Positions 8,730 to 33,472 of a stretch of DNA of 64,000 bases are shown in pieces; positions within the stretch are counted from its first letter, which is position 1; each line of letters starts with the position of its first letter. The notes beneath the pieces are model-generated. The model did not search any database and had not been told where the DNA came from. It saw only the letters and a list, made by a program, of their open reading frames with translations. The stretch spans positions 1 to 64,000 of IMG/VR virus record IMGVR_UViG_3300046706_000011, one strand, 5' to 3'. The DNA comes from a virus. The position numbers and the translations under genes were made by a program.

Positions 8730-8738
8730 TATAGTGCC

Positions 8739-9950: not shown

Positions 9951-9965
9951 GAAAGCAGACGCACT

Positions 9966-10166: not shown

Positions 10167-10200
10167 TCGAAAACCGCCCGATTGATGGGAGCGGCTACCG

Positions 10201-10323
10201 GTGATCGCCATTGACGTCGTCATCGAAGATGATTTCGACCTGCCGATAATGAAGCCAGAAACAGCACTCTCCAAATCGGGAGAGGGCACGGCCCATGAAC
10301 AGGGAGATGGGATGCATGAGTAA
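10201..10323 (+). CDS. Very short acidic protein
   Basis: A 40-codon frame with a GTG start, GGGAG nine bases upstream, encoding IAIDVVIEDDFDLPIMKPE and an acidic tail. The ribosome-binding site and composition support translation, but the size makes it uncertain. It lies 34 bases after the preceding small gene on the same strand. Confidence 0.35.
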   Translation: MIAIDVVIEDDFDLPIMKPETALSKSGEGTAHEQGDGMHE

Positions 10324-10367
10324 AAAGCGTCTCATTTCCTTGGGCCTTCCTGAAAGGCGTTTCAGAC

Positions 10368-10850
10368 ATGAATGGATTCAGAACTCGAACCAGGTGTCAA
10401 TTGGAAATTCGTCTCGCGGACCTCATGAGCGCAAGTACCACGCGCCGGGACGAACGGGAGATTGCGCGGGTCAGCGCGGAACTCGCGACCCTGATCCACC
10501 CGTCCCTGGGCCGGTTCTTTGAGCGGCTGGTCGCCGGGCTGGACGATCCTGCGACCTCCACGCAGGCGATCCGACATATCGACGCCCACTGCCCCCTGAA
10601 CAACGCGGGCCTCTTGCGCTTGCTGGCTGAAGCCGACGGCCTCGACCCTGCCGAGGGAAATCGCCAGCGGCTCTCCGCCGTCCTGTGCCGGCTAATGGAT
10701 GCCGTCCCCGGCGTGACCGTCCCACTTCCCATAGAAGGACCGGTGTCGGATCGTCTCGACGAGCTTTCCGAGCTGTACCTGGAAGCGAAGATCTCCGGAA
10801 AGCTTCTCGACCCGGCCGTGGTCGCACGCTTCCAGGAACTCACGTCTTGA
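10368..10850 (+). CDS. Unknown protein
   Basis: Up to 160 residues; the start is uncertain (10368 or the ATG at 10425, neither with a clear ribosome-binding site). The body is helical: ERARVSAELATL-type segments, then SLGRFFERLVAGLDDP, NNAGLLRLLAEADGL, and a C-terminal LDPAVVARFQELTS. It is the last plus-strand gene before the long minus-strand early operon. No family recognised. Confidence 0.5.
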   Translation: MNGFRTRTRCQLEIRLADLMSASTTRRDEREIARVSAELATLIHPSLGRFFERLVAGLDDPATSTQAIRHIDAHCPLNNAGLLRLLAEADGLDPAEGNRQRLSAVLCRLMDAVPGVTVPLPIEGPVSDRLDELSELYLEAKISGKLLDPAVVARFQELTS

Positions 10851-10923: not shown

Positions 10924-11397
10924 TCAAGGCTTCCCCTTGGCGGTCCGCGCCGCCGCGATCTGGCACCAGGACAGCTTCTTCTCCCCGTGATAGGGCCGCG
11001 CCAGCCCCCGGCGGATCATCTCCCGGCCCACGTCCGTCCCGTCCGGCGTGACGACGCGGGCCAGGGCGCGGCCGGCGTACTTGTCGTGATGGACGTCGAA
11101 CAGCAGGACGCGGGGATCGGCGATGAGCGAGCGCATCGCCTCCGACGCCTGCGCGGCCAAGGCCTTCTCCCCCTCGCACTTCCCGTTCTTCTCCGGCGTG
11201 TCGATGCCGTCGATGCGGATCGCGACCTCGACGGACTGGTCGAGCCACGTCGCCACCCGGACCTCCAGCGTGTCGCCGTCGCGGACCTTGGTCACCTCGG
11301 CGGCGAAGGGGCCGTCCATGCGGGTTGCTGGAAGCGCCTGGGATGCGGTCAGGGTGAAAACCGCTGCGGCAGCTAGGGTCGGTGTCATGGCACGCAT
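10924..11397 (-). CDS. Secreted thermonuclease-like (SNase) protein
   Basis: A 157-residue staphylococcal-nuclease-fold protein. A signal peptide (MTPTLAAAAVFTLTASQALP) precedes the SNase domain: VRDGDTLEVRVATW, then IRIDGIDTPEKNGKCEGEKA, VLLFDVHHDKYAGRALARVV and GREMIRRGLARPYHGEK. The conserved Asp, Arg and Glu sites are recognisable. It would degrade DNA in the periplasm or outside the cell. AGGAGG lies upstream of the ATG at 11397. Its 5' end is duplicated upstream of the methyltransferase (12431-12510). Confidence 0.85.
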   Translation of the reverse strand: MRAMTPTLAAAAVFTLTASQALPATRMDGPFAAEVTKVRDGDTLEVRVATWLDQSVEVAIRIDGIDTPEKNGKCEGEKALAAQASEAMRSLIADPRVLLFDVHHDKYAGRALARVVTPDGTDVGREMIRRGLARPYHGEKKLSWCQIAAARTAKGKP

Positions 11398-18006: not shown

Positions 18007-18097
18007 GTTTCAACCCACGCACCCGTCGGGGTGCGACTGACGTGATGGGCACCTGGGAGGGGGCCGTTTCAACCCACGCGCCCGTGAAGGGCGCGAC
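18007..18097 (-). CRISPR. Two-repeat, one-spacer CRISPR-like mini-array of type I-C appearance
   Basis: Two repeat units, 31 bases (18007-18037) and 32 bases (18066-18097), begin GTTTCAACCCACGC and end GCGAC, the reverse complement of the type I-C repeat family (GTCGC...GCGTGGATTGAAAC). A 28-base spacer lies at 18038-18065. Each repeat folds: GCACCC/GGGTGC in one, GCGCCC/GGGCGC in the other, a compensatory change that keeps the stem. On the minus strand the unit has the normal repeat orientation and is co-directional with the early operon. No cas gene is in the window, so host machinery would be needed. The spacer is shorter than the 33-36 bases usual for I-C. Confidence 0.7.
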
Positions 18098-18833: not shown

Positions 18834-19379
18834 TCAGCCCGGCGGCCCGGCCCGCTCGATCCACAAAGGCACGTTGCAGCCGCGCCAGCCCGAGGCATCG
18901 ACCACGGACGCCCGGCCGCATCCCCGTAGCGCCGCGACCGGGTCGTTGTACCGCATCAGGCGAAGCCACACGGCGCCCGCCGCCGGGTCGGCCCCCAGGG
19001 CGTCCCGAAGGCCGTCGGCGACCGCCGCCGTCTCAACCGCGCCCGCGCGCCAGCCCATCGCGTACCCGGCCCCCGCCGACGCGGCCATCCCGGACACCAG
19101 CACGCCCGCCGCCGCCAGCGCCGACCGCCACGCCAGGCGGGACGTGCGCCGCTCGACCATGCCCTCGGCCGCCGCGCCGATGGCCCGCGCCGAGCGCTCG
19201 ACCAGCGCCGCCTCGCCCTCCGGCGTCAGCCCGCGCGCCCCCGCCGCGACCGCCGCCCGGGCCGCCTGCGCCGCGTCGTGGACCGCGAGGAGCACCGCGA
19301 ACAGGGGGCGGTCGTCCCGCACCCCCGCCTGCCGGCACATCTCCCGGAATCCGCCGTCCGGATCGCTCAGGGCAGCCAT
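18834..19379 (-). CDS. TraM-like membrane protein of the transfer region
   Basis: A 181-residue protein with one probable membrane helix near residues 85-110 (LAWRSALAAAGVLVSGMAAS plus AGAGYAMG) between a soluble N-terminal helical part (PLFAVLLAVHDAAQAARAA) and a Cys-containing C-terminus (GCGRASVVDASGWRGCNVPL). Its position after a TraK-like and a ParA-type TraL-like gene, divergent from the relaxase, matches traM of IncP plasmids. Sequence similarity was not tested. The start overlaps the end of the upstream gene. Confidence 0.5.
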   Translation of the reverse strand: MAALSDPDGGFREMCRQAGVRDDRPLFAVLLAVHDAAQAARAAVAAGARGLTPEGEAALVERSARAIGAAAEGMVERRTSRLAWRSALAAAGVLVSGMAASAGAGYAMGWRAGAVETAAVADGLRDALGADPAAGAVWLRLMRYNDPVAALRGCGRASVVDASGWRGCNVPLWIERAGPPG

Positions 19380-20170
19380 CCCGAGATCCCCAGCGTCCGG
19401 ATGTTGCGATCCAGGTCATCGAGCCAGTCCTCGGCCATGAACGACTGGACCGGGTCAAGGGGGTCCGGACCCAGGCCCGACGCGGCGTCGTGGATGCTCA
19501 GCCCGTGCTCCCGGACCTCGTCCATGCAGGCCAGCCGGGTCAGCAGGAAGGACTTCGCGCCGGCCTCGACCATCGCGCGGAACCCACGGTCGTTCATCGT
19601 TCCCTCGAACGCCCCGGCAACGGTCCTGCCGTCACGGATCACGCCCTCGTTGAGGACCAGGAGCAGCCTCTTGGGATTGAAGTACCCGGCTTCCCAGATC
19701 GACACGCAGTGCCGAAGGTCCTCCGACTCCGGACCCAGGACGTAGATCGCCAAGGGCTCGATCCCGCGCCTGGAGCAGAACTCGACCAGCTTGAGGTCGC
19801 GCCCGTACTCCAGGAGCACCCGGTCGCCGCCGCCAAGGTCGAGCACCGCCGAGCGCTTCTCCTTCACCATCGCGTTCAGGACGGAGGACAGCCACGCCTT
19901 CACGTCGGGAAGTTCCTCGCTCGACGGCGAGACGGCATCCGGGAACAGGTCGGACAGCGTCCGCGACCGGGCATCGCCGTCCGCCACGATCACCGGGCGG
20001 CCCGCCGCCATGGCCCGCCACGCCAGCTCGGCCAGCAGCGTGGACTTGCCGCCGAACCCGCGCCCCAGGCCGACTGCCAGGACGGGCGCGGGGGACGGGA
20101 CCGTGGACTTCCCCGCCGCTTGGCCGCCGGAGGTCCCGGCCGCCGCTTCAAGGACATCGTTCTTCGCCAT
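19367..20170 (-). CDS. ParA/MinD-type ATPase, TraL/StbB-like
   Basis: A 267-residue P-loop ATPase. A deviant Walker A (GLGRGFGGKSTLLAELAWRA) is near residues 34-53; a Walker B-like stretch (SAVLDLGGGDRVLLEY) is near 105-120. It lacks the partner ParB and centromere repeats expected of a partition system. Together with a TraK-like protein upstream and a membrane protein downstream it fits the IncP TraL or R388 StbB type, which assists conjugative DNA processing and plasmid positioning. ATG preceded by GGGGAA. Confidence 0.65.
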   Translation of the reverse strand: MAKNDVLEAAAGTSGGQAAGKSTVPSPAPVLAVGLGRGFGGKSTLLAELAWRAMAAGRPVIVADGDARSRTLSDLFPDAVSPSSEELPDVKAWLSSVLNAMVKEKRSAVLDLGGGDRVLLEYGRDLKLVEFCSRRGIEPLAIYVLGPESEDLRHCVSIWEAGYFNPKRLLLVLNEGVIRDGRTVAGAFEGTMNDRGFRAMVEAGAKSFLLTRLACMDEVREHGLSIHDAASGLGPDPLDPVQSFMAEDWLDDLDRNIRTLGISGWLP

Positions 20171-20183: not shown

Positions 20184-20636
20184 TTACTTCCTCGATGATC
20201 GTCTGTTCAGCTCGGCCCGCATCCGGGCCAGGGCGTCGTGGGCGGACTCACCCTCCGCCGAGGGCGCCGGCCGGTCCGGTTCCCGGGCGTCCGGGAGAGT
20301 GTCCAGCGAAGGCCCGACGAGCGAGGCATCGCCGCCCCGTTGAACCGAAGCCTTCCTCGCCTTCCTCGCCGCGCGCTTGGCGTGCTCCTTCTGAACCCGC
20401 CACCATGTCACCCGAAGCCGATCGCCGGACGGCGACTTGCCCTTGGTGTCCACGAGGCCGCCTTCCCGGAACTTCTCGGCCAGCATGTCCCAGTTCGGGC
20501 GGCGGTCCTCCACCAGCGCCGCGAACTCGTCATGATTGTCCAGGAACCATTGCGACACCGGGGAGCGCCTGGAACCCCCCTCGCGAAGGACCGACCGGAT
20601 CTTGCCAAGCACGTCGGGTTTGCCATTCTCCGTCAC
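20184..20636 (-). CDS. TraK/StbC-like oriT-region DNA-binding protein
   Basis: A 150-residue basic protein. The N-terminal domain (SPVSQWFLDNHDEFAALVED, PNWDMLAEKFREGGLVDTKG, LRVTWWRVQKEHAKRAARKA) looks like the short helical DNA-binding domain found in proteins encoded beside TraL/StbB-type ATPases. The C-terminus is low-complexity. A GTG start follows AAGGGGG. IncP TraK binds and wraps oriT; here oriT would be about 2 kb away beyond the pentapeptide genes. Assignment is by context and pattern. Confidence 0.5.
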   Translation of the reverse strand: MTENGKPDVLGKIRSVLREGGSRRSPVSQWFLDNHDEFAALVEDRRPNWDMLAEKFREGGLVDTKGKSPSGDRLRVTWWRVQKEHAKRAARKARKASVQRGGDASLVGPSLDTLPDAREPDRPAPSAEGESAHDALARMRAELNRRSSRK

Positions 20637-20694: not shown

Positions 20695-21267
20695 TCATGG
20701 GGTTGTTAAATACGGCTGGTCGATCGCACCATTCAGGTTGGCACCCCTCAGGTCCGCGGCCCCCACGTCGGCCAGCCGCATCTTGGAGCCATCCAGCTTG
20801 GCGCCCCTCAGCTTGGCGCCCCCCAGGTTTGCGAGCGTCAGGTCGCACCCCCTTAGGTCGGAGAGCGTCAGGTTGGCGCCCGTCAGGTTTGCGTCCTTCA
20901 GATTGGCCATCCTCAGGTCAGCGCCCGTCAGGTCCGCACCGCCCAGGTTGACAAGCTGCAGGTTGGCACGCTGCAGGCAGGCGTCCGTCAGGTCCGCACG
21001 CCGAAGGTCCACGTTCATCAGGTCCGCGCCCTCAAGAACCGCATCCGTCAGGTCGGCACGCCGCAGGTCGGCGCTACACAGGTCGGCACACCTCAGGTCG
21101 GCCCGCCGAAGGTCCGCGCCCCTCAGCTTGGCCAGCCTCAGATTGGCACGCATCCCATACGGGTCGGCTGCCAGCCAGCGTGCGTGCCGGGCCAGGATGT
21201 CGGCCAGCGGCTCCCCATCATGCTTCACGCCAGTCATGCGCCGGATCATCCGGATCATTTCAGTCAC
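20695..21267 (-). CDS. Pentapeptide-repeat protein 1
   Basis: A 190-residue protein. From about residue 40 on it is almost all A(D/N)LXX repeats ([20 protein letters not shown] and so on, about 25 units), which form a right-handed quadrilateral beta-helix. The N-terminal ILARHARWLAADPYGMRANL is shared with the third copy; the C-terminus (NLNGAIDQPYLTTP) is shared with both others. Such proteins (MfpA, Qnr, AlbG) can mimic DNA and protect gyrase. GTG start with GAGGAGG six bases before. First of a tandem triplication. Confidence 0.9.
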   Translation of the reverse strand: MTEMIRMIRRMTGVKHDGEPLADILARHARWLAADPYGMRANLRLAKLRGADLRRADLRCADLCSADLRRADLTDAVLEGADLMNVDLRRADLTDACLQRANLQLVNLGGADLTGADLRMANLKDANLTGANLTLSDLRGCDLTLANLGGAKLRGAKLDGSKMRLADVGAADLRGANLNGAIDQPYLTTP

Positions 21268-21280
21268 CTAAAATTCCTCC

Positions 21281-21682
21281 TCACGGGATGATGGAAGCCG
21301 GCGCGTCGATCGCGCCCTCCAGGTTGGCGCCCCTCAGGTCTGCCAACTCCAGCTTGGCGCCCATCAGGTTGACATACCGCAAGTCCGCACCCCTCAGGTC
21401 GGAACGCCGCAGGTCGGTGCCCCTCAGGTCGGAACGACGAAGGTCCGCACCCCTCAGGTTGGCCCGCTTCAGGTTGGAATTCCTCATGTCCGCGCCCCCC
21501 ATGGTGGCACACCACAGGTCTGCACCCGACAGGTCGGCGTCGCTCAGGTCCGCGCCGGACAGGTTGGCGCAGGGCAGGGCGGCACCCTTCAGGTTGGCAG
21601 ACCTCAGGTCGGCCCCCCTCAGGTTGGCCAGCGGCTCCCCTTTGTGCGTCATGCCGGCGATGGCTTCGGTCTTTTCGGTCAT
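21281..21682 (-). CDS. Pentapeptide-repeat protein 2
   Basis: A 133-residue pentapeptide-repeat protein ([40 protein letters not shown]). It ends in [14 protein letters not shown], nearly the same tail as the third copy. The N-terminus is shorter and lacks the VLARHALW segment. GAGGAG lies upstream of the ATG. DNA similarity at its 5' and 3' ends to the next gene shows a tandem duplication. Confidence 0.9.
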   Translation of the reverse strand: MTEKTEAIAGMTHKGEPLANLRGADLRSANLKGAALPCANLSGADLSDADLSGADLWCATMGGADMRNSNLKRANLRGADLRRSDLRGTDLRRSDLRGADLRYVNLMGAKLELADLRGANLEGAIDAPASIIP

Positions 21683-21696
21683 TTCCAACTCCTCGG

Positions 21697-22122
21697 TCAC
21701 GAGGTCGTGGAAGTCGGCGCGTCGATCGCGCCTTCCAGCTTGGCGCCCCTCAGGTCTGCGTCCGTCAGATTGGCCCGCCGCAGGTCGGCACCCCTCAGGT
21801 ACGCGCCCCCTAGGTCGGCCCCCGACAGGTCCGCTCCCGTCAGGTCCGCACCGCCCAGGTTGGCGTTCCTCATGTCGGCTCTCCGCAGGTCCGCGCCCCT
21901 CAGGTCGGCGTAGGGCAGGACTGCGCCCCTCAGGCCCGCCAACCTCAGATCCGCGCCGGACAGGTCTGCGTGGGGCAGGGCGGCGCCTCTCAGATCCGCC
22001 AGCCTCAGGTCGGCGCCGGACAGGTCGGCACGCCGGCCCTTCGGGTCGCCGGCTATCCAAAGTGCATGCCGGGCCAGGACCTCGGTGATCATCGGGTTCG
22101 TCCGGATGGCTGCGCTGGTCAT
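21697..22122 (-). CDS. Pentapeptide-repeat protein 3
   Basis: A 141-residue pentapeptide-repeat protein. N-terminal [20 protein letters not shown], then about 20 A(D/N)LXX units, then [14 protein letters not shown]. First gene of the minus-strand operon that continues through the other two copies to the TraK-L-M-like genes, and next to the probable oriT region. A role in shielding the element's DNA or protecting gyrase on entry is inference from the family. Confidence 0.9.
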
Positions 22123-22449
22123 GTCGTCGTCTCCGTCCGTTGCGTCTCATTGCTTCCTTGAAACAGACAATAACGCAGCCGTATCACGTCATCAACATAA
22201 AAAGACCATTGGTTAAAAATCCGTATCACATAATATATGCAAAGTTATGTATACGTTATTCGGAGTCAACACGCCGCACCCGGTCGATACACGCCCGTCG
22301 CGGTGCCGCTGCAATTCCGCCTCAACGGCATCTCGCTTCCGTATCGGCTCCGTACCGGTCCCGTATCGAAGACGCGGCCGAAGCAAGCCGAAGCGCAGGC
22401 CCAGGCCCCAGGCGACGACGCAAGCCCAAGGCCGAGCCGCCCTCGCGCG

Positions 22450-22552
22450 CACACGCGGTTATTATCATCATCTTCTTTTTATAGTTTATAGTTCGTTGCC
22501 TCAGCCGTTGGTACAGCCGTTGAACGGGTTTCGTTGTTTATCAACGGTTTAG
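22450..22552 (-). repeat. Dispersed palindromic element, copy B
   Basis: Inverted relative to copy A. On the minus strand it runs GCTAAACCGTTGATAAACAA, then CGAAACCCGTTCAACGGCTG, then a tail with AACTATAAACTATAAAAAG and a GATGATGATAATAACCGCG block as in copy A. CCGTTGA/TCAACGG arms (22541-22547 and 22517-22523) form the palindrome. Its reading in the frame of copy A is interrupted by a stop (TAA after NYKL), so here it is not coding. Confidence 0.7.
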
Positions 22553-22682
22553 CGCTCAAGAACCGATAATTTCCGTGACGATTTTCCGAGCGTTTTTCGA
22601 TGCGTTTCTTGATCGAAACGCCGGATCGGACAAGGCGGACCGGGGTTGGAGCGGGGGGGGTCGGGATGGGAAGCCGAGGTGT

Positions 22683-22709
22683 GGGAAAAAGGGGTAGAGG
22701 AGGGTAGGG
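22683..22709 (+). other. Putative G-quadruplex motif
   Basis: Four G-tracts with short loops: GGG (22683), GGGG (22691), GGG (22702), GGG (22707), inside a 60-base polypurine run with an earlier G8 tract near 22653. It lies about 110 bases upstream of the relaxase promoter. G-quadruplex folding on one strand is plausible; function unknown. Confidence 0.45.
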
Positions 22710-22806
22710 AACAAGATAAAGCCCCCCTCGGCGGGGTGCCAAGCCCCTGCCGGGGCTCGCGGTCCGGGCCTCGGCGGCGGGGCGGGGCGGGGGTTTTGCC
22801 GAGGCA

Positions 22807-22855
22807 ATCCAGGGGTTGCCTGGATACCGGAAGTGGGCTACATTGTAGTTCGTTT
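22807..22855 (+). promoter_or_regulatory. Relaxase-operon promoter with regulon operator and inverted repeat
   Basis: TTGCCT (22816-22821), 17 bases, TACATT (22839-22844) is a good sigma70-like promoter. The operator GGGCTACATTGTAGTTC (22836-22852) covers the -10 box and shares its left arm with four other promoters in the conjugation block. A perfect inverted repeat ATCCAGG-GGTTG-CCTGGAT (22807-22825) overlaps the -35; on the minus strand it reads TATCCAGGC, faintly like the IncP nic consensus, so it is also an oriT candidate. Confidence 0.65.
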
Positions 22856-22917
22856 TGAACGTCCCGCCGCCCCTTTCACCGACCATCCCACCGACCATCG
22901 CGAGGATCAGCGTCCCG

Positions 22918-24930
22918 ATGCCCATCAGCACGCTCCATGACCGGCGCCTCCAGGCCGAGCGGGACTTCCGGCTGCGGTTCGCGCGGGGCGGGGAGGCCTC
23001 GACCCGGGACGCGGGCCGGGGGCGGGTCCTGGGCGGAGGCTGGGGGACGGCGGGGGCGATCTCCCGGCCGGCACCGGTCGCGGCCACCGCAGCGCCGGCC
23101 ACCATAGCGCCGGCCCCTGTGCGCCGTGCCGGTCCGGGGGCTGGGCGGCCCGGGGGCGTCGGCCTGGACGCCGCGTCGGGGATCACGACGACGGGCCGGA
23201 CGACGCGGGGCGTCCTGCTCAAGCCCCCGGCGCCGTGGAAGCAGGCGGTGACGGTCAAGGCCTCGTACAAGGAACGCAAGGGGACCGGGGCGGAGACGGC
23301 GCGTCGGTTCCGGGCCGCGCTGTCGCGCCAGGGAAAGTACAACACGCGGGAGGACCGGGAGAGCGCGCGGGGCGGGACCGAGCCGGTCGAGGCGTTCACG
23401 GCGCGGGACGACGGCGTCGAGATCGGGGCCGCGACGGCGGCGTGGGTCGAGGACCGGCGGTACTGGAAGCTGATCGTGAGCCCCGAGCGCGGGCGTGACC
23501 TGCGGGACATGAAGGGCTACGTCCGCGACCTGATGGCCCAGGTCCAGCAGGACGTCCTGTATCCCTCCGAGCTTCGCCGGGGCCGGGAGGTCGAGTGGGT
23601 CGCGGCGGTCCATGACGACACGGACCATCCCCACGCGCACATCCTGATGCGCGGCCGGCTCGGCGACAAGGACCTCGGCCTGCGCCCGGACTACGTCGCG
23701 CACGGCATCCGGGCTCGGGCGGCGGAGGTCGCGACGCGGGAGCTTGGGCCGAGGACGGGCCTGGACGCGCCCGCGATGGGCGTCGAGGAACTTCGGGAGT
23801 TCGCGGCCCGGGACCCCGAGACGGGACCGGCGGCCGGGCTCGGCGCGATCCCCGAGGGCATCCCGCTCCCTGAGATGGACAGCCGGTTCCGCGCGGCCGG
23901 CTGGCGGGTCCGGGTCACGCTGGACACGGCCGCGCGGGACCGGGTCGCCGTGCTGCGCGAAGACCTGCGGGGAATGAAGGTGGGCGCGAAGATGAACCGG
24001 GAGACCGGCGAGCTGACGCTCTACGCGGGGACCTACATGGGCGCGCAACTGGTCGGCCGGATCGTCGGGAACGGGTACGCCGACATCGTCCGCCCCGCGG
24101 GGGCTGCGGCGAAGGCGCGCGGGCTGGAGATGGCGGACGGGGTGTGGGCGTCCTTCGAGGCGAAGGGCGACGACGACCGGTTCGGCCGCCTGGGCGCGGC
24201 CGGGGTCGTGTTCACGCGGGCCGACGAGCGGCGCATCCTGGAGCCCGGCGCGGACGTGGAGGCCGAGACCGACCGGGCGGTGTTCCGGGCGAACGAATGG
24301 CACAACCATTACCACCCGGAAAGCTTCCTGGGGGCGGGGGCGGCGGAGCGGGGGGACGGACAGCCCGAGGCGGGCTGGGTCCTCAGGGTCCACGCGGGCG
24401 AGGCCGCCGGGGACGTCGTGAAGCTCCTGGGCGTCGTTGACATGCAGTACCGGGTCGTGCCCGGCGGGTCCGTCGATGCGGACGGCCGCCCGGTCGATGC
24501 CGTGGTGGTCTACGCGGGACCCATGGACGCGGCGAACGAGATCGTGGACGCGCTGGAGATCGCGGTTGGGAACCGGCTGGAGAGCCCGGCCGGGGACGGG
24601 TCGGCGCATCGGTTCCTGGACGGGATCGACGGCCGGTACGTCCCGCACAGCATCGCGGAGGGTCAGTTCTCGGACCGCTGGGTCAACGGCGTCCCGCTGC
24701 TGAGCGGGTGGGAGGACTCGGTCGGGTTCCTCGGCGAGGATGCCGTCCTGGACGAAGCCGCCGGGATGCTCGCGGAAATGGACGGGGCGGCGTTCCACGG
24801 CGGGCACGACGACGGCGCCTCGGTCGGCCTGGACGACGCCGACCCCTCGGACCTTGGCCTGCCCGACCCGTGGGAACGGGCCGGCGGGGGAATTCATGAA
24901 ACCCATGCGTGGGAGGGACTGGAACTGTGA
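22918..24930 (+). CDS. Conjugative relaxase (MobP, RlxS-type)
   Basis: A 670-residue relaxase that would nick oriT and pilot the strand into the recipient. After a low-complexity N-terminus, residues about 180-245 carry the relaxase core: YWKLIVSPERGRDLRDMKGY, then VAAVHDDTDHPHAHILMRG with the three-His metal motif. The downstream part has the long helical layout of the RlxS/DUF3363 relaxases of alphaproteobacteria. The ATG at 22918 follows GAGGA; TTG at 22855 would add 21 residues. First gene of the plus-strand transfer operon, driven by the operator-controlled promoter just upstream. Confidence 0.85.
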   Translation: MPISTLHDRRLQAERDFRLRFARGGEASTRDAGRGRVLGGGWGTAGAISRPAPVAATAAPATIAPAPVRRAGPGAGRPGGVGLDAASGITTTGRTTRGVLLKPPAPWKQAVTVKASYKERKGTGAETARRFRAALSRQGKYNTREDRESARGGTEPVEAFTARDDGVEIGAATAAWVEDRRYWKLIVSPERGRDLRDMKGYVRDLMAQVQQDVLYPSELRRGREVEWVAAVHDDTDHPHAHILMRGRLGDKDLGLRPDYVAHGIRARAAEVATRELGPRTGLDAPAMGVEELREFAARDPETGPAAGLGAIPEGIPLPEMDSRFRAAGWRVRVTLDTAARDRVAVLREDLRGMKVGAKMNRETGELTLYAGTYMGAQLVGRIVGNGYADIVRPAGAAAKARGLEMADGVWASFEAKGDDDRFGRLGAAGVVFTRADERRILEPGADVEAETDRAVFRANEWHNHYHPESFLGAGAAERGDGQPEAGWVLRVHAGEAAGDVVKLLGVVDMQYRVVPGGSVDADGRPVDAVVVYAGPMDAANEIVDALEIAVGNRLESPAGDGSAHRFLDGIDGRYVPHSIAEGQFSDRWVNGVPLLSGWEDSVGFLGEDAVLDEAAGMLAEMDGAAFHGGHDDGASVGLDDADPSDLGLPDPWERAGGGIHETHAWEGLEL

Positions 24931-25160
24931 ATTTCGATCCGTTCTTCGGCTACTCGGAAACGACGGCCTTCGCGGCGGCGGGCGGGGCGGTGGCCCTCCT
25001 GTTCGCGCTTCGGTTCGGCGTTCCCGGCCTTTACCGGTCGGTCGTTCGCCGAGCCCGGCGGCGGCGGCACCCGGAGCTTGACCCCGGCTCCCCGTGGGCG
25101 ACGCGGCGGGATCGGGAACGCTACGGCCTGCGCCCGGCGACGCGCTGGTGGAAGCCGTGA
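24927..25160 (+). CDS. Membrane-anchor half of a split coupling protein (proposed)
   Basis: A 77-residue protein, GTG overlapping the relaxase stop. One hydrophobic helix (ETTAFAAAGGAVALLFALRF), then a basic segment and SPWATRRDRERYGLRPATRW. The WATRRD...GL segment is typical of the linker between the membrane anchor and the first nucleotide-binding strand of VirD4/TraG proteins. The next gene begins at the point where VirD4 would continue and lacks any membrane helix. I therefore read this as the anchor domain encoded as a separate cistron. Confidence 0.6.
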   Translation: MNFDPFFGYSETTAFAAAGGAVALLFALRFGVPGLYRSVVRRARRRRHPELDPGSPWATRRDRERYGLRPATRWWKP

Positions 25161-26674
25161 GGCCGGGCGGCGGCATCGTGATCGGCGAGGACCCGGACGA
25201 CGGGGAGCTGCTGATCGACAAGAGCCAGGACCACGTCCTGGTCGAGGGGCCGAGCGGGACGGGCAAGACGACCTCGTTCTTCATCCCGACGCTGGCGCGG
25301 ACCTGGGTCGGCTCCGCCGTCGTCCACCTGCGGATGAAGGACCTGTACCTGATGCTCCAGGGGACCCGGAAATGGCGCCACAACCTGATCCTCGCGCCGT
25401 CCGAGCCGTGGTCGGTCCGCTACAATCCGTTCGCGGAGATCGGCACGGGGGCGGACGCCGTGACCGACTGCCAGAACATCGCGCACATGCTGCCCCACGG
25501 CGGGAAGATCAGCGCTCGGGACCCGATCTGGGACACGAACTCGGTCGGGTTGGTGTCGGCGATGATCCTGTTCCTGCTGAACTTCGCCGAGGACGACCGG
25601 AAGAACTTCTCCGGCCTGATCGAGCTTCACGAGCAGCGCATGGAGGGGGCGCAGCGGATGATGCGCAACCTGCATCCCGACCCGTGGGTGCGGAACTTCA
25701 TCGACTACGGCGCGCGCAAGATCTACCAGAACGAGAACGCGCGGTACGCGGACAGCATCGTGGCGACGATCGACGGCTACCTTGAGGCGTTCAACAACCC
25801 GATGGTCAGCGACATCACCCGCGAGAGCGAGTTCCGGATCGCCGACCTCGTGTGCGGGCCGCACCCGGTGGCGCTGTGGCTCTACCTTCCCCCCCACCAT
25901 AGCGACCGTCTGGCGCCGCTGGCCCGGATCGTCACGTCCCAGGTCCTCAAGAAACTGATGGCGGACGACCTCGCCTCGGGGGAACTCAACGTCGATGGGG
26001 TGCGCCGGGAATGGCCGATGCTGTTCTGCCTGGACGAGATGAACCGCATGGGGGTGTTGTCCGAGGTCGAGGGGGCCTACGCCGACATGCGGAACTCGGC
26101 GTGCCGGGTCATGGCCGGGACGCAGTCGATCCCGGTCCTGACCGACCCGAGGATGTACGGTCCCAACTCATTGATCGCGTCGCAGAGCAAGCGGGTGATC
26201 CTGAAACCCAAGGGCCTGGCCGAGGCGCGCAACGCCTCGGCGATGCTGCCGCTCGTGAAGAAGCGCCAGTACTCGGCGTCCGAGAACTTCGGCACGGTCG
26301 AGGAGCGCCGGGGCAGCGGCCTGACGGAAAGCTTGGCGGACCGTCCCCTGATGCGACCCGACGAGATCCTGGCGATGCCGGTCGAGAAGGTGATCGTCCC
26401 GGGGTTCGACAAGCCCTTGTTCGTCAACCGCCCGTCCTGGGGCCACTGGAAGGACCTGCTCGATCCGGTGCCGACGCGCTTGTGGCCCGACCTGCACGTA
26501 CCGTTCCTGCCGGTCCGGGCGGACGGGGCCTACCTGGACCTTCCGAAGCGGACGCTGGGGGCCAACCCGTGGCACGGGGTCCGGCATCCGGTCGAGGGGG
26601 AGCCGGTGACCGTGGACGTGGGCCTGGACGGCGGGGCCGAGACGGGCAGATCGCCCGAGCTTATTTCACTTTGA
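25157..26674 (+). CDS. Type IV coupling protein VirD4/TraG, cytoplasmic domain
   Basis: A 505-residue ATPase that would bring the relaxosome to the secretion channel. Walker A is VEGPSGTGKTTSF near residues 29-41 and Walker B MLFCLDEMNRMG near 286-297. SLIASQSKRVILKPK and a C-terminal domain follow. It starts at GTG in a GTGA overlap with the small anchor gene and has no N-terminal membrane helices, which VirD4 proteins normally carry. The chain restarts directly at GGGIVIGEDPDDGELLI, the first strand after the usual anchor linker. Confidence 0.9.
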   Translation: MRPGGGIVIGEDPDDGELLIDKSQDHVLVEGPSGTGKTTSFFIPTLARTWVGSAVVHLRMKDLYLMLQGTRKWRHNLILAPSEPWSVRYNPFAEIGTGADAVTDCQNIAHMLPHGGKISARDPIWDTNSVGLVSAMILFLLNFAEDDRKNFSGLIELHEQRMEGAQRMMRNLHPDPWVRNFIDYGARKIYQNENARYADSIVATIDGYLEAFNNPMVSDITRESEFRIADLVCGPHPVALWLYLPPHHSDRLAPLARIVTSQVLKKLMADDLASGELNVDGVRREWPMLFCLDEMNRMGVLSEVEGAYADMRNSACRVMAGTQSIPVLTDPRMYGPNSLIASQSKRVILKPKGLAEARNASAMLPLVKKRQYSASENFGTVEERRGSGLTESLADRPLMRPDEILAMPVEKVIVPGFDKPLFVNRPSWGHWKDLLDPVPTRLWPDLHVPFLPVRADGAYLDLPKRTLGANPWHGVRHPVEGEPVTVDVGLDGGAETGRSPELISL

Positions 26675-26685
26675 CGAGGTACGCG

Positions 26686-27060
26686 ATGAGGAAGGAACGG
26701 AAAGAGGAGCGCACGGTGTCGTTCTTCGCGGGCGACCTGGAGTGGCTTGACCGGCAGGCGGCTCGGCGGAAGGCCGGGCGGAGCGCCCTGCTCGCCGAGA
26801 TGATCGCGGCGGCGCGGGGCGAGGCGGTCGAGGACGACGCGCTGAAGATGGTGGTGGAGCGCCTTGGCCGGGTGGAGGCGATGGTGAAGTCCCTGGCCGG
26901 GATCGCGGTCGGGCTCGACCGCCACGCCCGGCGCACGCGGGCGATGGTGTCGCTGGACCAGCAGGTGGCGATCCTGGGCGAGGCGGCGCGGCCCAGGACG
27001 CTGGAACAATTGAAGCTGAGAACCGAGCAACTTGAGGAGGGATACATCCGTGAGATTTAG
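26686..27060 (+). CDS. Small DNA-binding-like protein in the transfer operon (RHH/MobC-type?)
   Basis: A 124-residue basic protein. The N-terminal part (RTVSFFAGDLEWLDRQAARR, then KAGRSALLAEMIAAARGE) has the strand-helix-helix form of ribbon-helix-helix proteins. The rest is a coiled-coil-like helix (MVVERLGRVEAMVKSLAGIA). GAGG precedes the ATG by seven bases. Between virD4 and trbB it could be a TraJ/MobC-like relaxosome component or the repressor of the operator palindromes described here. The choice is open. Confidence 0.55.
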   Translation: MRKERKEERTVSFFAGDLEWLDRQAARRKAGRSALLAEMIAAARGEAVEDDALKMVVERLGRVEAMVKSLAGIAVGLDRHARRTRAMVSLDQQVAILGEAARPRTLEQLKLRTEQLEEGYIREI

Positions 27061-28027
27061 CCAAACAGCCCGTGCGACGACGTTCAACCTGCTCCTCAAG
27101 CTTCTGGGGAGCGAGATCGTCGGCCACATGACGGACCCGCTGGTCGAGGACATCTTCCTGAACTCCAACGGGGCCGGGTTCGTCCGGTACGCCGGCAAGA
27201 AAACCAAGCTGGGAGTGAGCGTCGATGGCGAGGCGATGAGCCTGATCATCGGCTATGCCGGGACCCTGGTCGGGATGACGGCGGACGGGGTCGCCCGGTT
27301 CGCGGTGGACGGCAAGCTGCCGAGCGGGCAGCGGTTCCACGGGGTCGTCCCGCCCCGCGCGGCCCAGGGTCCGTACATCGTCATGCGAAACCCGCCGCGC
27401 ACGATCCACACGCTGGGCAGCTATGTCGATCAGGGGGTCATGACGGCGGCGGTGGCGGACCAGCTCCGGAGTGACGTGGACGATGCGAAGACCATCGTGA
27501 TCGGGGGCGTCACGGGGGCGGGCAAGACCTCCCTGATGACCTGCCTCGTCAACACGGGCGCGGCGCGGGAAGCGCGCATCGTGCTGCTGGAGGACGCCGA
27601 GGAAGTCAACGTGGACGCCGTCGAGGATCGCATCGTCAAGTCCACGCTGGGCGGGACCATGGACGAGCTGGCCTACGACGCGCTCCGGGAACGGCCCGAG
27701 CGTATCTACATCGGCGAGGTTCGCGACCGGGCCATGAAGACGTGGCTTGAGGTCGTCGGCACGGGGCATCCGGGCTCGATGGTCACGCTCCACGCGGGCA
27801 GCCCGAGGGGTGTGATGGCCAGGGCCGAGCAGCTCGTCTCCGAGGCCGTGGTGGACGTCGCGGGCCAGCGCCCGGTGCTGTGCGACACCATCGACCGGGT
27901 CGTGGTCGTGGCGCTGGGCCGGGACGGGAAGCGCCGCGTGCCGGGCGTCTACGCGCCGGCCGGGCATAAGGACGGCCGCTATGAAATTCGCACTGTCGCG
28001 GGGGACGAAGGTTGTGCTACAACTTAG
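27050..28027 (+). CDS. trbB: TrbB/VirB11 secretion ATPase
   Basis: A 325-residue hexameric ATPase at the base of the type IV secretion system. Walker A GGVTGAGKTSL near residues 148-158, followed by VLLEDAEEVNV and the VirB11-type RPERIYIGEVRDRA and GHPGSMVTLHAGSP motifs. GTG start after GAGGAGGG, overlapping the upstream stop. Its 3' end contains the promoter for trbC. It opens a set in the Ti-plasmid order trbB-C-D-E-J-K-L-F-G-I. Confidence 0.92.
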   Translation: MRFSQTARATTFNLLLKLLGSEIVGHMTDPLVEDIFLNSNGAGFVRYAGKKTKLGVSVDGEAMSLIIGYAGTLVGMTADGVARFAVDGKLPSGQRFHGVVPPRAAQGPYIVMRNPPRTIHTLGSYVDQGVMTAAVADQLRSDVDDAKTIVIGGVTGAGKTSLMTCLVNTGAAREARIVLLEDAEEVNVDAVEDRIVKSTLGGTMDELAYDALRERPERIYIGEVRDRAMKTWLEVVGTGHPGSMVTLHAGSPRGVMARAEQLVSEAVVDVAGQRPVLCDTIDRVVVVALGRDGKRRVPGVYAPAGHKDGRYEIRTVAGDEGCATT

Positions 28028-28045
28028 CGGGCTACAATGTAGCCC
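28011..28045 (+). promoter_or_regulatory. trbC promoter with the most perfect regulon operator
   Basis: GTTGTG (28011-28016), 16 bases, TACAAT (28033-28038). The 17-bp GGGCTACAATGTAGCCC (28029-28045) is a perfect palindrome about its central A and covers the -10 box. It straddles the end of trbB (stop at 28025-28027), giving trbC and downstream pilus genes their own regulated start. Confidence 0.75.
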
Positions 28046-28079
28046 ATTCCACGCAACACCCTGGAACGAGGATTTCGAC

Positions 28080-28418
28080 ATGCGGAACCTATCCAAGCTC
28101 CGTCACCGCGAGGCCCTGGCCTGGACCTTCGCCCTGTGCCTGTTCGCGCTGTGGAGCGACCCGGCCTGGGCGCAGGTCGGCGGCGAGATACCCGGCGGGA
28201 CGTACCTGATCTCGATGATGGACACGATCGTGTCCTTCATCCGGATGAACCTGGGTCCGATCGTGGTCGTCCTCGTCGTGTTCGCGGGGGTGTTCGGGTG
28301 CGCCGCGGGCGACTGGAACCGCGGCATGGGCCGGGTCGTCATGGGCCTCGTCGCCGGGGCGTTCATCGCCGGCTCGACGCTGTGGTGGCCGTGGGTCAAG
28401 ACGTGGTTCACGGCATGA
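28080..28418 (+). CDS. trbC: TrbC/VirB2 pilin
   Basis: A 112-residue prepilin. The signal peptide (EALAWTFALCLFALWSDPAW, cleavage after AQ) precedes two hydrophobic helices (IVVVLVVFAGVFGCAAG; RVVMGLVAGAFIAGSTLWWP), the VirB2/TrbC layout. It would form the conjugative pilus after processing. GAGGA lies seven bases before the ATG, and the stop overlaps trbD (ATGA). Confidence 0.85.
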   Translation: MRNLSKLRHREALAWTFALCLFALWSDPAWAQVGGEIPGGTYLISMMDTIVSFIRMNLGPIVVVLVVFAGVFGCAAGDWNRGMGRVVMGLVAGAFIAGSTLWWPWVKTWFTA

Positions 28419-28708
28419 TCCGGGACGGCAGCATCCAGATCCTGGGTGCCGGCACCCTGCCCTACGTCTGGGGCGGGGTGCGGTTCTCGGTGTGGACGTT
28501 CCTGGCGCTCTGGGTCGTGGGCGCCGGGGCGGTCCAGCTCTACCTGACGCCGTTCGGGATGCTGAGGGGGCTGTCCGGGATCTTCGTGGTCGGGTCCATG
28601 GTCTGGTTCCTGGGCTGGGTCATGACCCAGAGGAACCCCTTCTTCCCGGAGGTCTTCGCGACGTGGCTCTGGCGCACGGTGCGCCGGGCGCATTCACTGA
28701 AGAGCTGA
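28415..28708 (+). CDS. trbD: TrbD/VirB3 inner-membrane protein
   Basis: A 97-residue protein with two membrane helices (WTFLALWVVGAGAVQLYLTP; SGIFVVGSMVWFLGWVMTQ), as in VirB3/TrbD. It sits between pilin and TrbE, the fixed position of this component. The start overlaps the trbC stop. The C-terminus PEVFATWLWRTVRRAHSLKS is basic and cytoplasmic. Confidence 0.85.
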   Translation: MIRDGSIQILGAGTLPYVWGGVRFSVWTFLALWVVGAGAVQLYLTPFGMLRGLSGIFVVGSMVWFLGWVMTQRNPFFPEVFATWLWRTVRRAHSLKS

Positions 28709-28721
28709 GAGGATCTGAGAG

Positions 28722-31241
28722 TTGGGCGTCATCGCAGCGATGAGGGACATGCTCGCCGGAGGCGACTGGTACTTCTGGGACGAGTTGCCGTGGTCGAGCG
28801 GGATCGAGACGGGGGACGGCCCGTGCCGGGTCGTCGAGTGCCGGAACCGGTCCTGGATGTCGTGCCTGAGGCTCGACCCGCCGGACCTGGAGTGCGGGAC
28901 GGAGGCGGACCGCCTGCGCCACGCGCTGCTCTTCCACGGCGCCCTGCGGGCCTTGGGCGGCGGGCACGTGGTCTGGATCGACGAGCACCACGACCCGGAG
29001 CGACCCTACCCGGCGGCGAAGCCGGCGAACCCGGCGGCGCGGCGGTTCGAGGAAGCGCGGGACCGGACCTACGGCGAGGTCGTCGGGCACTGGCGCTCGA
29101 CCCACTACCTGACGGTCCAGTGGCGCAAGCCGCCGCAGTGGATCGAGAAGCTGTCCCGGCTGGTCCTCGTGGCGCACCCCGGGGACCGTGCCCGGGACTA
29201 CGGGCCGGCCTTCCAGGCGTTCAACGACCGGGTCGCGGGACTGGAGGGGCAGCTCGCCTTCCTCGGCGCGAAGGTGCTGGAGGGGGACGGCCTCGCGGCC
29301 TACCTGCACGACACGGTCAGCCGGGTCCGGCAGCCGGTGAGGTTCGGCAACTGGCAGGACTGGATCTCGCCGCAACTGGTGGACATGCCGATCAACGCCA
29401 TGGAGCGGGACGACGGCGGGGCGCTGACCATCGGCGTCGGGGACGACAAGGAATACGTCGTCCCGGTCACGGTCCACAGCTACCCGGCGGGCGTCGATGC
29501 CGGGATACTCGACGGGACGGAGGACTTCGCCGGGGTGGCGTCACTGCCGATCACATACCGCCGCGTCACCCGGATCGCGATCCAGGCGAAGACCGAGGCG
29601 GTCAAGGACATGGCCGCGTTGCGCCGCAAGGCGGAGATGACCCGCCAGAACCTCCTGCGGACGACCCTCCAGCAGTTCTACCCGAACGCGCCCCAACGCC
29701 TGAACTACGAGGCCGACCACGCCGCGCAGGAGGTCGAGGAATGGCTCAAGGACCTTGCGCGGGGCAAGACGCTGCGGTGCCAGAACACGACGACCTTCCT
29801 CGTCTACCACCGGGACGCGGGGGTCGCGATGGAACAGGCGAGGATGATCCTGATGCACCTCCGGGAGACCGCGGGGCTCGTGGCCCAGGTCGGGCGGCTC
29901 GGCGCGCTGGAGAGCTTCCTGGGGACGGTGCCGGGCAACAGCGACCACGACTTCGTCCGGCCCTACACGAACACCTTGGCGAGCGGCGGTCTGGCGCCGC
30001 TGTCGAACACCTGGGGCGGGCGGCGGCACGACCCGGTGCTCAAGGGTCCGCCGCTCCTGGTCGGCACGACGAACGAGTCGATCCGGCACCACGTCGTCCT
30101 GTCGCCCGAGGGCGACGGCATGGCGAGCCACGCGGTCATCACCGGCCCGTCCGGGTCGGGCAAGACGGCCGCCATCAACGAAATGTGCTTCGGTTTCCTG
30201 AAGTACCGGGGCACGCGGGTATTCCGGATCGACAAGGGGCGGTCGGCCTACGTCTCGACCCTGTGCGCCGGGGGGACGATCATCGACCCGGTGCTGTCCG
30301 GCGAGGGTTTCCAGCCCCTGCGTTTCATCGCGGACTGGAAGGAGCGGGTCTGGGCGAAGGCATGGCTGACAGCCTACGTCCGGATGCGCGACCCGGCGCT
30401 GGCCAACGACCCGGCGGTGGACGCGGCGATCAAGGACACGCTGGAGTGCCTGGGCAAGGCGCTCGACCCGGACGACCTGGACATGTCGGCGTTCGTCAAC
30501 GCGCTGTCCCATCCGGGGTTGCAGGCGGCCCTTCGTCCCCTGACCCGCGACGGTTCGCTGGGCTACGTGTTCGACGCCATCGACCGCCGGTCCTACGACG
30601 CCGACTGGACCAGCGTCGAGCTGGACGAGCTGGTCGAGGACGAGGAGGTCGCCGGGCCGCTGATGGCGTACCTGTGGCACATGATCCGGCGGCTGTGCCA
30701 CCGGGACCGCCCGATGCTGATCCCCATCGACGAGGCGTGGATGGCGATGAAGGGACCGTTCAAGGACATGCTGAACAAGGGGATGAGGACGTTCCGGCGG
30801 GAGAACGCGCGGGTCGTGTTCGCGTCGCAGAGTGCGGTGGACATCGCGTCGAGCGAGCTGGCGGGGATCATCGTGAACTCGTGCTCGCTGAAGATGGTCT
30901 TCCCGGACAGCGCGATCGCCTCCCCCGAGGTCGCGGCGGCGTACATGGTCCTCCAGGTCCGCCCCCAGTGGATGGATCGGCTGAACTACCGGTTCCAGGG
31001 CGGGGAGCCCCGTTTCTGCCTCGTGATGCAGGACGGGGGCGCGCGGTTCATGCACTTCGACATGGAGGAGGAGACCGACCCGGAGGCGTTCTGGATGTGC
31101 TGCGCGACCAACAGCGGGGCGGTGGCCGACGCGCTGCGCGTCCGGGACATGGGAGGTTCGTTCCTGGACGACTGGCTCGGCGAGAAGGTGCACGGCAAAC
31201 GGGCGCGGCCTCCGGTCCCGGCCCTGGCGGCAGCCGAATGA
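28722..31241 (+). CDS. trbE: TrbE/VirB4 secretion ATPase
   Basis: An 839-residue ATPase that energises pilus assembly and substrate transfer. Walker A VITGPSGSGKTAAINEM near residues 470-486; Walker B MLIPIDEAWMAM near 664-675; SQSAVDIASSELAGIIVNSC follows. Length is typical. Start at TTG 28722 is supported by GAGAGGAT eight bases before; ATG 28740 is an alternative six codons later. Confidence 0.93.
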   Translation: MGVIAAMRDMLAGGDWYFWDELPWSSGIETGDGPCRVVECRNRSWMSCLRLDPPDLECGTEADRLRHALLFHGALRALGGGHVVWIDEHHDPERPYPAAKPANPAARRFEEARDRTYGEVVGHWRSTHYLTVQWRKPPQWIEKLSRLVLVAHPGDRARDYGPAFQAFNDRVAGLEGQLAFLGAKVLEGDGLAAYLHDTVSRVRQPVRFGNWQDWISPQLVDMPINAMERDDGGALTIGVGDDKEYVVPVTVHSYPAGVDAGILDGTEDFAGVASLPITYRRVTRIAIQAKTEAVKDMAALRRKAEMTRQNLLRTTLQQFYPNAPQRLNYEADHAAQEVEEWLKDLARGKTLRCQNTTTFLVYHRDAGVAMEQARMILMHLRETAGLVAQVGRLGALESFLGTVPGNSDHDFVRPYTNTLASGGLAPLSNTWGGRRHDPVLKGPPLLVGTTNESIRHHVVLSPEGDGMASHAVITGPSGSGKTAAINEMCFGFLKYRGTRVFRIDKGRSAYVSTLCAGGTIIDPVLSGEGFQPLRFIADWKERVWAKAWLTAYVRMRDPALANDPAVDAAIKDTLECLGKALDPDDLDMSAFVNALSHPGLQAALRPLTRDGSLGYVFDAIDRRSYDADWTSVELDELVEDEEVAGPLMAYLWHMIRRLCHRDRPMLIPIDEAWMAMKGPFKDMLNKGMRTFRRENARVVFASQSAVDIASSELAGIIVNSCSLKMVFPDSAIASPEVAAAYMVLQVRPQWMDRLNYRFQGGEPRFCLVMQDGGARFMHFDMEEETDPEAFWMCCATNSGAVADALRVRDMGGSFLDDWLGEKVHGKRARPPVPALAAAE

Positions 31242-31528
31242 GGGGGTCGGAATACCTTGCGCTGCGCGTCGCGGCCTGCACCGCGGTGATGGCGCTGGGC
31301 GGCGGCTTCGTGTTCGCGGTGGCGCGCTGGGTCCTGCCGTGGCTGATGGGTCGGGTTTCGCAGGCGTATCCGGGACCGCTCGCGGCGTTCGCCGGGATCG
31401 TGTTCGGGATGGGGGTGATTGTCCTTGTGAGTCATGGACTTCGGGTGATAGTGGGCTATACTCTACTACGCATCGACCGGCTGGCGGACGGCGGGTCGCG
31501 GATCACCGACGAGGATGGGGGGGATTGA
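31238..31528 (+). CDS. Small two-helix membrane protein after trbE
   Basis: A 96-residue protein, ATG overlapping the trbE stop. Two membrane helices (CTAVMALGGGFVFAVARWVL; LAAFAGIVFGMGVIVLVSHG) and a charged tail. Not a standard Trb component; it sits between trbE and trbJ where Ti-type operons usually have nothing. The regulon promoter for the following gene lies inside its 3' half. Function unknown. Confidence 0.6.
   Translation: MRGSEYLALRVAACTAVMALGGGFVFAVARWVLPWLMGRVSQAYPGPLAAFAGIVFGMGVIVLVSHGLRVIVGYTLLRIDRLADGGSRITDEDGGD
31435..31469 (+). promoter_or_regulatory. Internal regulon promoter upstream of the second small membrane gene
   Basis: TGGACT (31435-31440), 16 bases, TATACT (31457-31462). 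GGGCTATACTCTACTAC (31453-31469) is a weaker copy of the shared operator; its left arm GGGCTA is intact. It lies within the preceding coding region. Confidence 0.5.
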
Positions 31529-31529
31529 C

Positions 31530-31877
31530 ATGGATTGGCAGAAAATCAAGGCAACGGCTGGAGCCGTGACGGGGTCGGTTTGGCGGAATGGCCGCAATGT
31601 CCTGGCGTTTGCCGGCGCGGTATCCATCGGGGTCGATGCCTTGGTGCGTTCACAATTGGACGTGGCAACGGTCCCGTCGGTAACAATCGAACTAGGCAAA
31701 TTCCTGGAGCTGAAGTACCAGATCGTGGCGATCACCTTGATTCCGTTGTTGGCGTTGATTGCGTTGTTGGCGTTCATTTCCATTACGCGCGGGTTCTGGG
31801 ATGGGTTCATCGCCTTCACCGAGTCCACCGCATGGGACGCAACGAAGTGCGCGTTGGCGAAGCGGTTCCGCCGGTGA
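31530..31877 (+). CDS. Small membrane protein between trbE and trbJ
   Basis: A 115-residue protein with probable helices near residues 22-38 (NVLAFAGAVSIGVDALV) and 65-90 (QIVAITLIPLLALIALLAFI). The DNA is AT-richer than its neighbours, which suggests later acquisition. It has its own operator-controlled promoter about 60 bases upstream. No family recognised; entry exclusion or fertility control are possible roles. Confidence 0.6.
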   Translation: MDWQKIKATAGAVTGSVWRNGRNVLAFAGAVSIGVDALVRSQLDVATVPSVTIELGKFLELKYQIVAITLIPLLALIALLAFISITRGFWDGFIAFTESTAWDATKCALAKRFRR

Positions 31878-33193
31878 CGACGGTTTCGCGCCTTGCCGCG
31901 GCGCTCATCGCGGGGACGGTCCTCGCCGGGAGCGGCCCCGCCCTGGCACAGTTCCGGGTCGGCGGGCTCGTCCCGGTCGGAGCCGAGGACGTGGCCGCCA
32001 TCGACGCGGCGCTGGACGAGATGCGGAGCGCCGGATGGACGGCGGAGGAAATGGACATCCGGCTTCGTCGGGAAGGCTACGTGCTGGACCGGGCGGTCCT
32101 GGACGGCGACGTGGCCGTGGCGGACGGCCGGGTCCGGGGCATGGTCGCCGAGGTGGCCGGCGCCGGGGACCCGGCGGGCGGGGACCCGGCGGGCGGGGAC
32201 GGCCGGGCGCCGAACCGGCAGCCGACCCCCTTCGAGCGCGGACTCGCGGGCGTCGCGGGCAACGTCGGGAACACCGACGAGGAAATCCTGCGGGCGATGC
32301 AGGGCGGGAACTCCCAGCTCTGGGCGCGGATGACCGGCATCCTGTCGGGACGCTCGGTCACGAACCGGGCCAACCAAGTGATCGACGGAGCGACCGGTGC
32401 CGCCACGCGCCCGATCCGGGAAGCCGGCGACGCCGCCGTGAACACCGTCATGCAGCCGATCGAGGACACCGTTGACACCGCCGCCCAGTCGGCCATGTGT
32501 TCCCTCGGCTCCGCCGCCCTGGGGGCTGCCGCCTCGCTCGTCAGCGCCGTGTTCAGCGGGGGCAAGGCCACGTACGGCGCCCAGGTCGCGCAATGGCTGA
32601 CGGGGATCAGCAGTCAAGTCTGCCTGGGCCAGCAGCTCGCGGTGCAGAAGCGCATGGTGGCGCTCCAGCAGCGCATGGTGGCGCCAATCGGACGTAACGT
32701 GGTCGGTCAGGCGGGCGGCGTCAGCGGCGTGGTGCTGGATTCCATCGGCCTCCTCGACGCGGAAGAGGTCGCCAGGGGCTACCAGGACGGCGCCAGCGCC
32801 GACCTCGCCCCCGGCGCCTCCCTGGCGATGCAGCGCCTCCTTCGCGCCCGGACGGATCAGGCGCGGCGTGCCGCGCTGGAGACGGCGGCGCTCAACGTCG
32901 CGGCGGAGCGGGCCTATTCGGATATGGCCGACCGGGCGCTCGACCTGAGCCAGTCGGCCCGGGGACAGACCTCGGCCGTCCAGGCGCTGGCCCAGTTGCA
33001 GCGGGCCAATGAGGGGGCGGCGGCGGCGCGGCATTCTTCCCAGATGGCCTTCAGCAACGCGGCCCTGGTAGCGGAAGAGGAGGACCGCGCGAGCGAGCGC
33101 CTTGCCGCCGCCCGCCGGGCGCGGTTCTATTCGGGCCTCGGCCCGTCCGGCAGCCAGGAAGCGGCGGCGCCGGGTTTCAACCTTTTCCAGTGA
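31874..33193 (+). CDS. trbJ: TrbJ/VirB5-like minor pilus protein
   Basis: A 439-residue exported protein, GTG in a GTGA overlap. A signal peptide (RLAAALIAGTVLAGSGPALA) is followed by a Gly/Ala-rich region, a helical core with paired Cys, and long C-terminal helices (ALETAALNVAAERAYSDMAD; SSQMAFSNAALVAEEEDRAS) like TrbJ/VirB5. It is longer than the usual ~250 residues. Its ending ARRARFYSGLG is echoed in the next small protein. Assignment relies on operon position plus layout. Confidence 0.6.
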   Translation: MTTVSRLAAALIAGTVLAGSGPALAQFRVGGLVPVGAEDVAAIDAALDEMRSAGWTAEEMDIRLRREGYVLDRAVLDGDVAVADGRVRGMVAEVAGAGDPAGGDPAGGDGRAPNRQPTPFERGLAGVAGNVGNTDEEILRAMQGGNSQLWARMTGILSGRSVTNRANQVIDGATGAATRPIREAGDAAVNTVMQPIEDTVDTAAQSAMCSLGSAALGAAASLVSAVFSGGKATYGAQVAQWLTGISSQVCLGQQLAVQKRMVALQQRMVAPIGRNVVGQAGGVSGVVLDSIGLLDAEEVARGYQDGASADLAPGASLAMQRLLRARTDQARRAALETAALNVAAERAYSDMADRALDLSQSARGQTSAVQALAQLQRANEGAAAARHSSQMAFSNAALVAEEEDRASERLAAARRARFYSGLGPSGSQEAAAPGFNLFQ

Positions 33194-33202
33194 GGAGTCG
33201 TC

Positions 33203-33469: not shown

Positions 33470-33472
33470 CCC

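Follow-up and report, generated by a model that had tools for sequence, protein, structure and literature searches.

Three pentapeptide-repeat genes ahead of a transfer gene set

We analysed a stretch of 64,000 nucleotides (hereafter the window), which is part of the 90,506-bp IMG/VR record IMGVR_UViG_3300046706_000011. At 20695-22122 the window holds three adjacent genes for pentapeptide-repeat proteins, here designated P1, P2 and P3 in the direction in which they are read. On the same strand they are followed by three genes that we call TraK-, TraL- and TraM-like, and across a divergent intergenic region stands a relaxase gene with further conjugation genes behind it. The features to which we refer below are as follows.

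21697..22122, - strand: P1, pentapeptide-repeat gene; 141 aa, 20 repeats, N-terminal tag, tail GAIDAP
21281..21682, - strand: P2, pentapeptide-repeat gene; 133 aa, 21 repeats, GEPLA and then the repeats, tail GAIDAP
20695..21267, - strand: P3, pentapeptide-repeat gene; 190 aa, 28 repeats, GTG start, both N-terminal tags, tail GAIDQP
20184..20636, - strand: TraK-like gene (named by position); 35-44% identity to the gene preceding TraL on Skermanella plasmids, no family match
19367..20170, - strand: TraL-like P-loop protein; 62-72% identity to homologues on Skermanella and Roseomonas-group replicons
18834..19379, - strand: TraM-like gene (named by position); no family match
22123..22854, no strand: divergent intergenic region, candidate oriT/promoter; lower GC, skew change
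22855..24930, + strand: MOBP relaxase, RlxS/DUF3363 type; start codon uncertain
25094..26674, + strand: TraG-type coupling protein; profile matches
27032..28027, + strand: TrbB-type ATPase; belongs to the ensuing series of Trb-type transfer genes

A preliminary description of this DNA had placed three adjacent pentapeptide-repeat genes here, and this is borne out by the open reading frames, by the matches of P1, P2 and P3 to the Pfam Pentapeptide model (PF00805; E 1e-36 to 1e-42) and by the repeats themselves, which form unbroken runs of 20, 21 and 28 pentapeptides of the A(D/N)LXX type, where membership of the superfamily calls for at least 8 contiguous ones. Across the 69 repeats of the three proteins the inward position i is L in 64, M in 4 and V in 1, and the inward position i-2 is A in 59 of the 69, while the outward positions i+1 and i+2 are highly variable. 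The GC content at third codon positions is 82-86% in the three genes. Because the inward positions are near-invariant and the outward ones free, we read the fold as constrained and not as a product of chance: P1-P3 are constrained genes, not the chance frame of a DNA repeat.

The genes are closely packed. Gaps of 14 bp and 13 bp separate P1 from P2 and P2 from P3, P3 lies 58 bp from the TraK-like gene, 13 bp separate the TraK-like from the TraL-like gene, and the TraL-like and TraM-like genes overlap by 13 bp. It had been proposed in the preliminary description that P1-P3 form one operon with the TraK-L-M-like genes, and with gaps of 13-58 bp ahead of the overlap a single transcript across all of them is plausible, judging from the spacing. 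The same description set the genes beside the transfer origin. Here the gene order fits, and on that basis P1-P3 likely adjoin the origin, but the DNA itself gave no matching signal in 22123-22900: neither an RP4-like nor a MOBQ nic core was recognised in this interval, and a search of it for 11-mers shared with relaxase plasmids (pSR-1 and those of Xanthomonas and Phycisphaera) returned two chance-like matches only and no convincing shared motif. For the early expression on entry that the description also raised, P1-P3 would have to lie on the side of nic that is first to enter the recipient.

The TraK-, TraL- and TraM-like proteins had no match to Pfam, NCBIfam or PHROGs models at E 1e-3, and the names TraK-like and TraM-like therefore rest on position. 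The TraL-like protein carries the P-loop GRGFGGKST and is weakly matched by FtsY and MipZ profiles. In the IncP plasmids RK2/RP4 the operon encodes TraK, TraL and TraM in that order and is divergent from the relaxase and coupling-protein genes. The genes of the window resemble this operon in number, in order, in their divergence from the relaxase and coupling protein and in the P-loop of the TraL-like protein; they differ from it in that no family model matches them and in that pentapeptide genes sit ahead of traK.

Family membership, duplication and distribution

Judged by their profile matches (about E 3e-33 for P1, 3e-27 for P2 and 1e-50 for P3), the three proteins belong to phrog_7713, a widespread phage-type pentapeptide family. 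The best-matching stretch starts inside the N-terminal tag for P1 and P3, at profile positions 5 and 7, and at profile position 28 for P2, which is tagless. A tag of the form H..W[LIV]....G.RA[DN]L directly before the repeats is common in viral contigs. Like P1-P3, the phage proteins of phrog_7713 type are small, carry the N-terminal H..W tag followed by A(D/N)Lxx repeats and in some cases are encoded in tandem clusters; for instance, clusters of the same build, with a repeated tag and short tails, comprise three consecutive genes in one viral contig (L150) and four in another (L173). There are differences as well. Many of the viral relatives carry 60-130 residues past the repeats, whereas P1-P3 stop 10-15 residues after them, and P1-P3 stand ahead of conjugation genes and not of phage early genes.

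A Salmonella record contains a P22-like element in which one member of the family adjoins the genes for Ral anti-restriction and superinfection exclusion, with anti-RecBCD genes further on. Of the phage neighbours of the family (72 proteins), those shown with a named match are for the most part DNA-metabolism and early genes; no preferred neighbour family was found among the 72 proteins, the HNH endonuclease families being the most frequent at 4/72 at most. We also note an expanded pentapeptide repertoire in a Skermanella aerolata genome (L100), which holds 62 stretches matching P1, many of them in open frames of ~410-560 codons.

The preliminary description attributed the trio to tandem duplication, citing N- and C-terminal tags in common. 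The tags exist, with a distribution that differs from the one described. The N-terminal tag reads VLARHALW in P1 and ILARHARW in P3 and is absent in P2; outside the repeats, P1 and P3 have the segment ARHA.W.A.DP.G.R in common, and P2 and P3 have GEPLA and its surroundings in common. The C-terminal tail is exactly GAIDAP in P1 and P2 and becomes GAIDQP in P3. In shuffle tests on the non-repeat ends (2000 shuffles per pair), the similarity of the N-termini was equalled in 0/2000 shuffles for P1-P3 and for P2-P3 and in 604/2000, which is not significant, for P1-P2; for the C-terminal tails the corresponding counts were 2/2000 (P1-P2), 10/2000 (P1-P3) and 26/2000 (P2-P3). The motif GAI[DN] near the C-terminus occurred in 0/160 other pentapeptide ORFs checked. 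Since bit scores within the trio (~99-116) do not exceed that of P1 against a P22-like relative (112), the case for duplication rests on the tags. With these and the shuffle tests, local tandem duplication is supported as the origin of the three genes, much as had been suggested; P2, whose N-terminal tag is missing, has the look of a copy shortened by ~20 codons.

Is the linkage to the TraK-L-M-like genes conserved? Beyond the close TraL-like homologues listed above, more distant ones occur in many Acetobacteraceae genomes, and we gathered ~95 distinct TraL-like loci with flanks of up to 5-10 kb, shorter at contig ends. Matches to P1-P3 at E 1e-5 were found at none of them (0/~95), while as a control the search recovers the three genes of the window and unrelated pentapeptide genes at ~35% identity. 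In most close relatives TraK is the first gene of the operon. We therefore reject a conserved linkage, this being a search of controlled sensitivity, and the remark in the preliminary description that the linkage was not a known arrangement agrees with our finding no other case. Pentapeptide genes on other plasmids adjoined an annotated relaxase in 0/10 inspected neighbourhoods, a small sample, and no relatives of the relaxase, coupling protein or TraL-like protein of the window were found in the viral contigs searched.

On Skermanella rosea pSR-1 (L093, L342) the TraK-L-M-like operon is likewise divergent from a relaxase-TraG-TrbB series, with ~20 kb of unrelated genes between the two. Because pSR-1 has these other genes there, the stretch from TraK to the relaxase can take up cargo, which suggests that it is an insertion site. 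From this single instance of the arrangement, P1-P3 are best read as an insertion on the lineage of this element.

Fold, charge and possible roles

AlphaFold2 models, made of P1, predict a regular solenoid with strands at five-residue steps and pLDDT >90 in most of the repeat core. A helix at the N-terminus is predicted with low confidence and none at the C-terminus; a 4-residue helix in one model falls inside the repeats. Foldseek searches with the P1 model returned pentapeptide proteins broadly, headed by Nostoc and designed solenoids, with MfpA and QnrB1 lower in the list, and since the TM-scores are mostly low, they speak for the fold class and not for a particular relative. The models thus support a square right-handed beta-solenoid for P1.

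Qnr, MfpA, AlbG and EfsQnr have this right-handed square beta-solenoid of pentapeptides too (PMC8145042). The gyrase-protecting pentapeptide proteins are electronegative, have ~8 coils and form dimers through C-terminal helices, and several have protruding loops (PMC8145042; PMC10886550). P1-P3 differ from them on each count. The net charges of P1, P2 and P3 are 0, 0 and +2 against -6 for QnrB1 as a yardstick, no face of the solenoids is more negative than -2, and acidic residues at i-1 are offset by arginines at i+1. There are 5-7 coils and no protruding loops in the repeats, no C-terminal dimer helix is seen in the P1 models, each of the three proteins stops 10 residues past its last repeat block, and the Qnr/MfpA family models score P1-P3 at ~20-50 bits where their cut-offs are 240-500. 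The preliminary description had proposed that the proteins may mimic DNA and shield gyrase, with a DNA-like charge distribution as the feature to look for; such a distribution is not seen in the net charges and the face charges of the three proteins, and with charge, architecture and family scores all against it we disfavour this proposal. The case is a warning that the repeat pattern by itself is insufficient ground for DNA mimicry.

What, then, might the proteins do? Most pentapeptide-repeat proteins have no known biochemical function (PMC8145042), and P1-P3 form a small set, located in a transfer operon, that resembles the gyrase-binding members in neither charge nor architecture. We tentatively favour, as the most probable of the readings considered here, the view that P1-P3 are duplicated accessory cargo of phage type, made together with TraK-L-M, whose products are neutral solenoids that may bind a host protein. 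Three phage-type genes, locally duplicated, would now form the start of a conserved traK-L-M-like operon beside the relaxase, and would be expressed with it. Each product would be a small and rigid square solenoid, probably monomeric and capped by a short N-terminal segment, which might bind a host protein as a scaffold or decoy. We count towards host binding the anti-restriction and superinfection-exclusion neighbours in the P22-like element and the predominance of DNA-metabolism and early genes around the phage relatives. Because they are absent from ~95 other copies of the transfer gene set, P1-P3 are probably accessory, and would be cargo of the mobile element and not a required part of the transfer machine.

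Alternatively, P1-P3 might be neutral or selfish cargo that hitch-hikes and folds but serves neither transfer nor the entry of the element. We regard this as unlikely, although it survives best among the alternatives: the placement is a one-off among the ~95 TraL-like loci, and copies would be easily acquired where possible hosts hold large repertoires, such as the 62 stretches of the S. aerolata genome, but all three frames are intact, the inward positions are strongly constrained and GC3 is high.

More doubtful is an anti-defence role, in which the proteins would bind and block a defence system of the recipient as the element enters. The P22-like element, where a family member lies near genes for anti-restriction, superinfection exclusion and anti-RecBCD, would be in keeping with such a role, as would the position of P1-P3 as the first gene group on one side of the relaxase. 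However, neither P1 nor P3 had a PADLOC match, and our literature search found no paper linking pentapeptide repeats to plasmid leading regions or to phage anti-defence. We are more sceptical still of a bolder version, in which a neutral, monomeric set of phage-type solenoids was recruited as an anti-host module and is expressed together with the relaxosome genes of what would be a conjugative phage-plasmid; if true, it would provide a conjugation-associated host-interaction protein that is no DNA mimic.

We give little credence to the idea that P1-P3 are accessory parts of the relaxosome that act with TraK-L-M at the transfer origin, since for all the tight packing of these genes P1-P3 are missing from ~95 loci with the same module, and in most close relatives it is TraK that starts the operon. 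Least likely, and in our view hardly credible, are Qnr/MfpA-like DNA mimics that bind gyrase and shield incoming or supercoiling-sensitive DNA, for which the common fold class and a weak resemblance to MfpA and QnrB1 in sequence and fold are what any pentapeptide protein would be expected to give, and against which stand the charges, the coil number, the lack of loops and of a C-terminal helix, and the low family scores described above.

The element that carries the genes

The conjugation genes occupy window positions 22855-37794 on the + strand and include matches to the relaxase, TraG, TrbB, TrbL, VirB8, CagX and TrbI; a weak AAA/P-loop match was seen in a protein of the record placed like a VirB4-type ATPase. 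The record also carries a lambda-like tail module, on the - strand at 48702-63695 of the window and continuing to ~68 kb of the record (L011), with genes for tail tip J, tail assembly, minor tail proteins (L, M), tape measure, tail terminator, neck and head-tail adaptor. Among the ORFs of the record that were scanned, none was recognised as a terminase, portal or major capsid gene. One tail gene has its best plasmid relatives on Azospirillum megaplasmids and on rhizobial and Methylobacterium plasmids of 115-119 kb; of the 562 plasmid records with that tail gene, only 6 are typed as conjugative. The element may be a conjugative phage-plasmid; alternatively, a chimeric contig or assembly possibly joins the conjugation and tail modules.

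Past the head-tail adaptor lie very large ORFs, all on the - strand (8658-12635 of L011, and 6008-10795 and 3031-4599 of L348), which have laminin-G/concanavalin-like, cellulase-like and tail-spike matches and perhaps encode surface-degrading fibres. A DnaB-type replicative helicase is encoded at 2228-3784 (+) of the window, and the product of 4274-5722 (+) weakly matches a primosomal protein, which suggests that the element carries replication functions.

Several minor features of the window may be recorded as well. At 18007-18097 there are two CRISPR-like repeats (GTTTCAACCCACGC[A/G]CCCGT...), 59 nt apart, which would be a one-spacer remnant or a mini-array, with no cas genes recognised nearby. 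An IS605 OrfB/TnpB-type protein with a Cas12f1-like TNB domain is encoded at 8565-9950 (+), and 10924-11397 (-) encodes a staphylococcal-nuclease-like protein that PADLOC matches weakly (SNc+LTD model).
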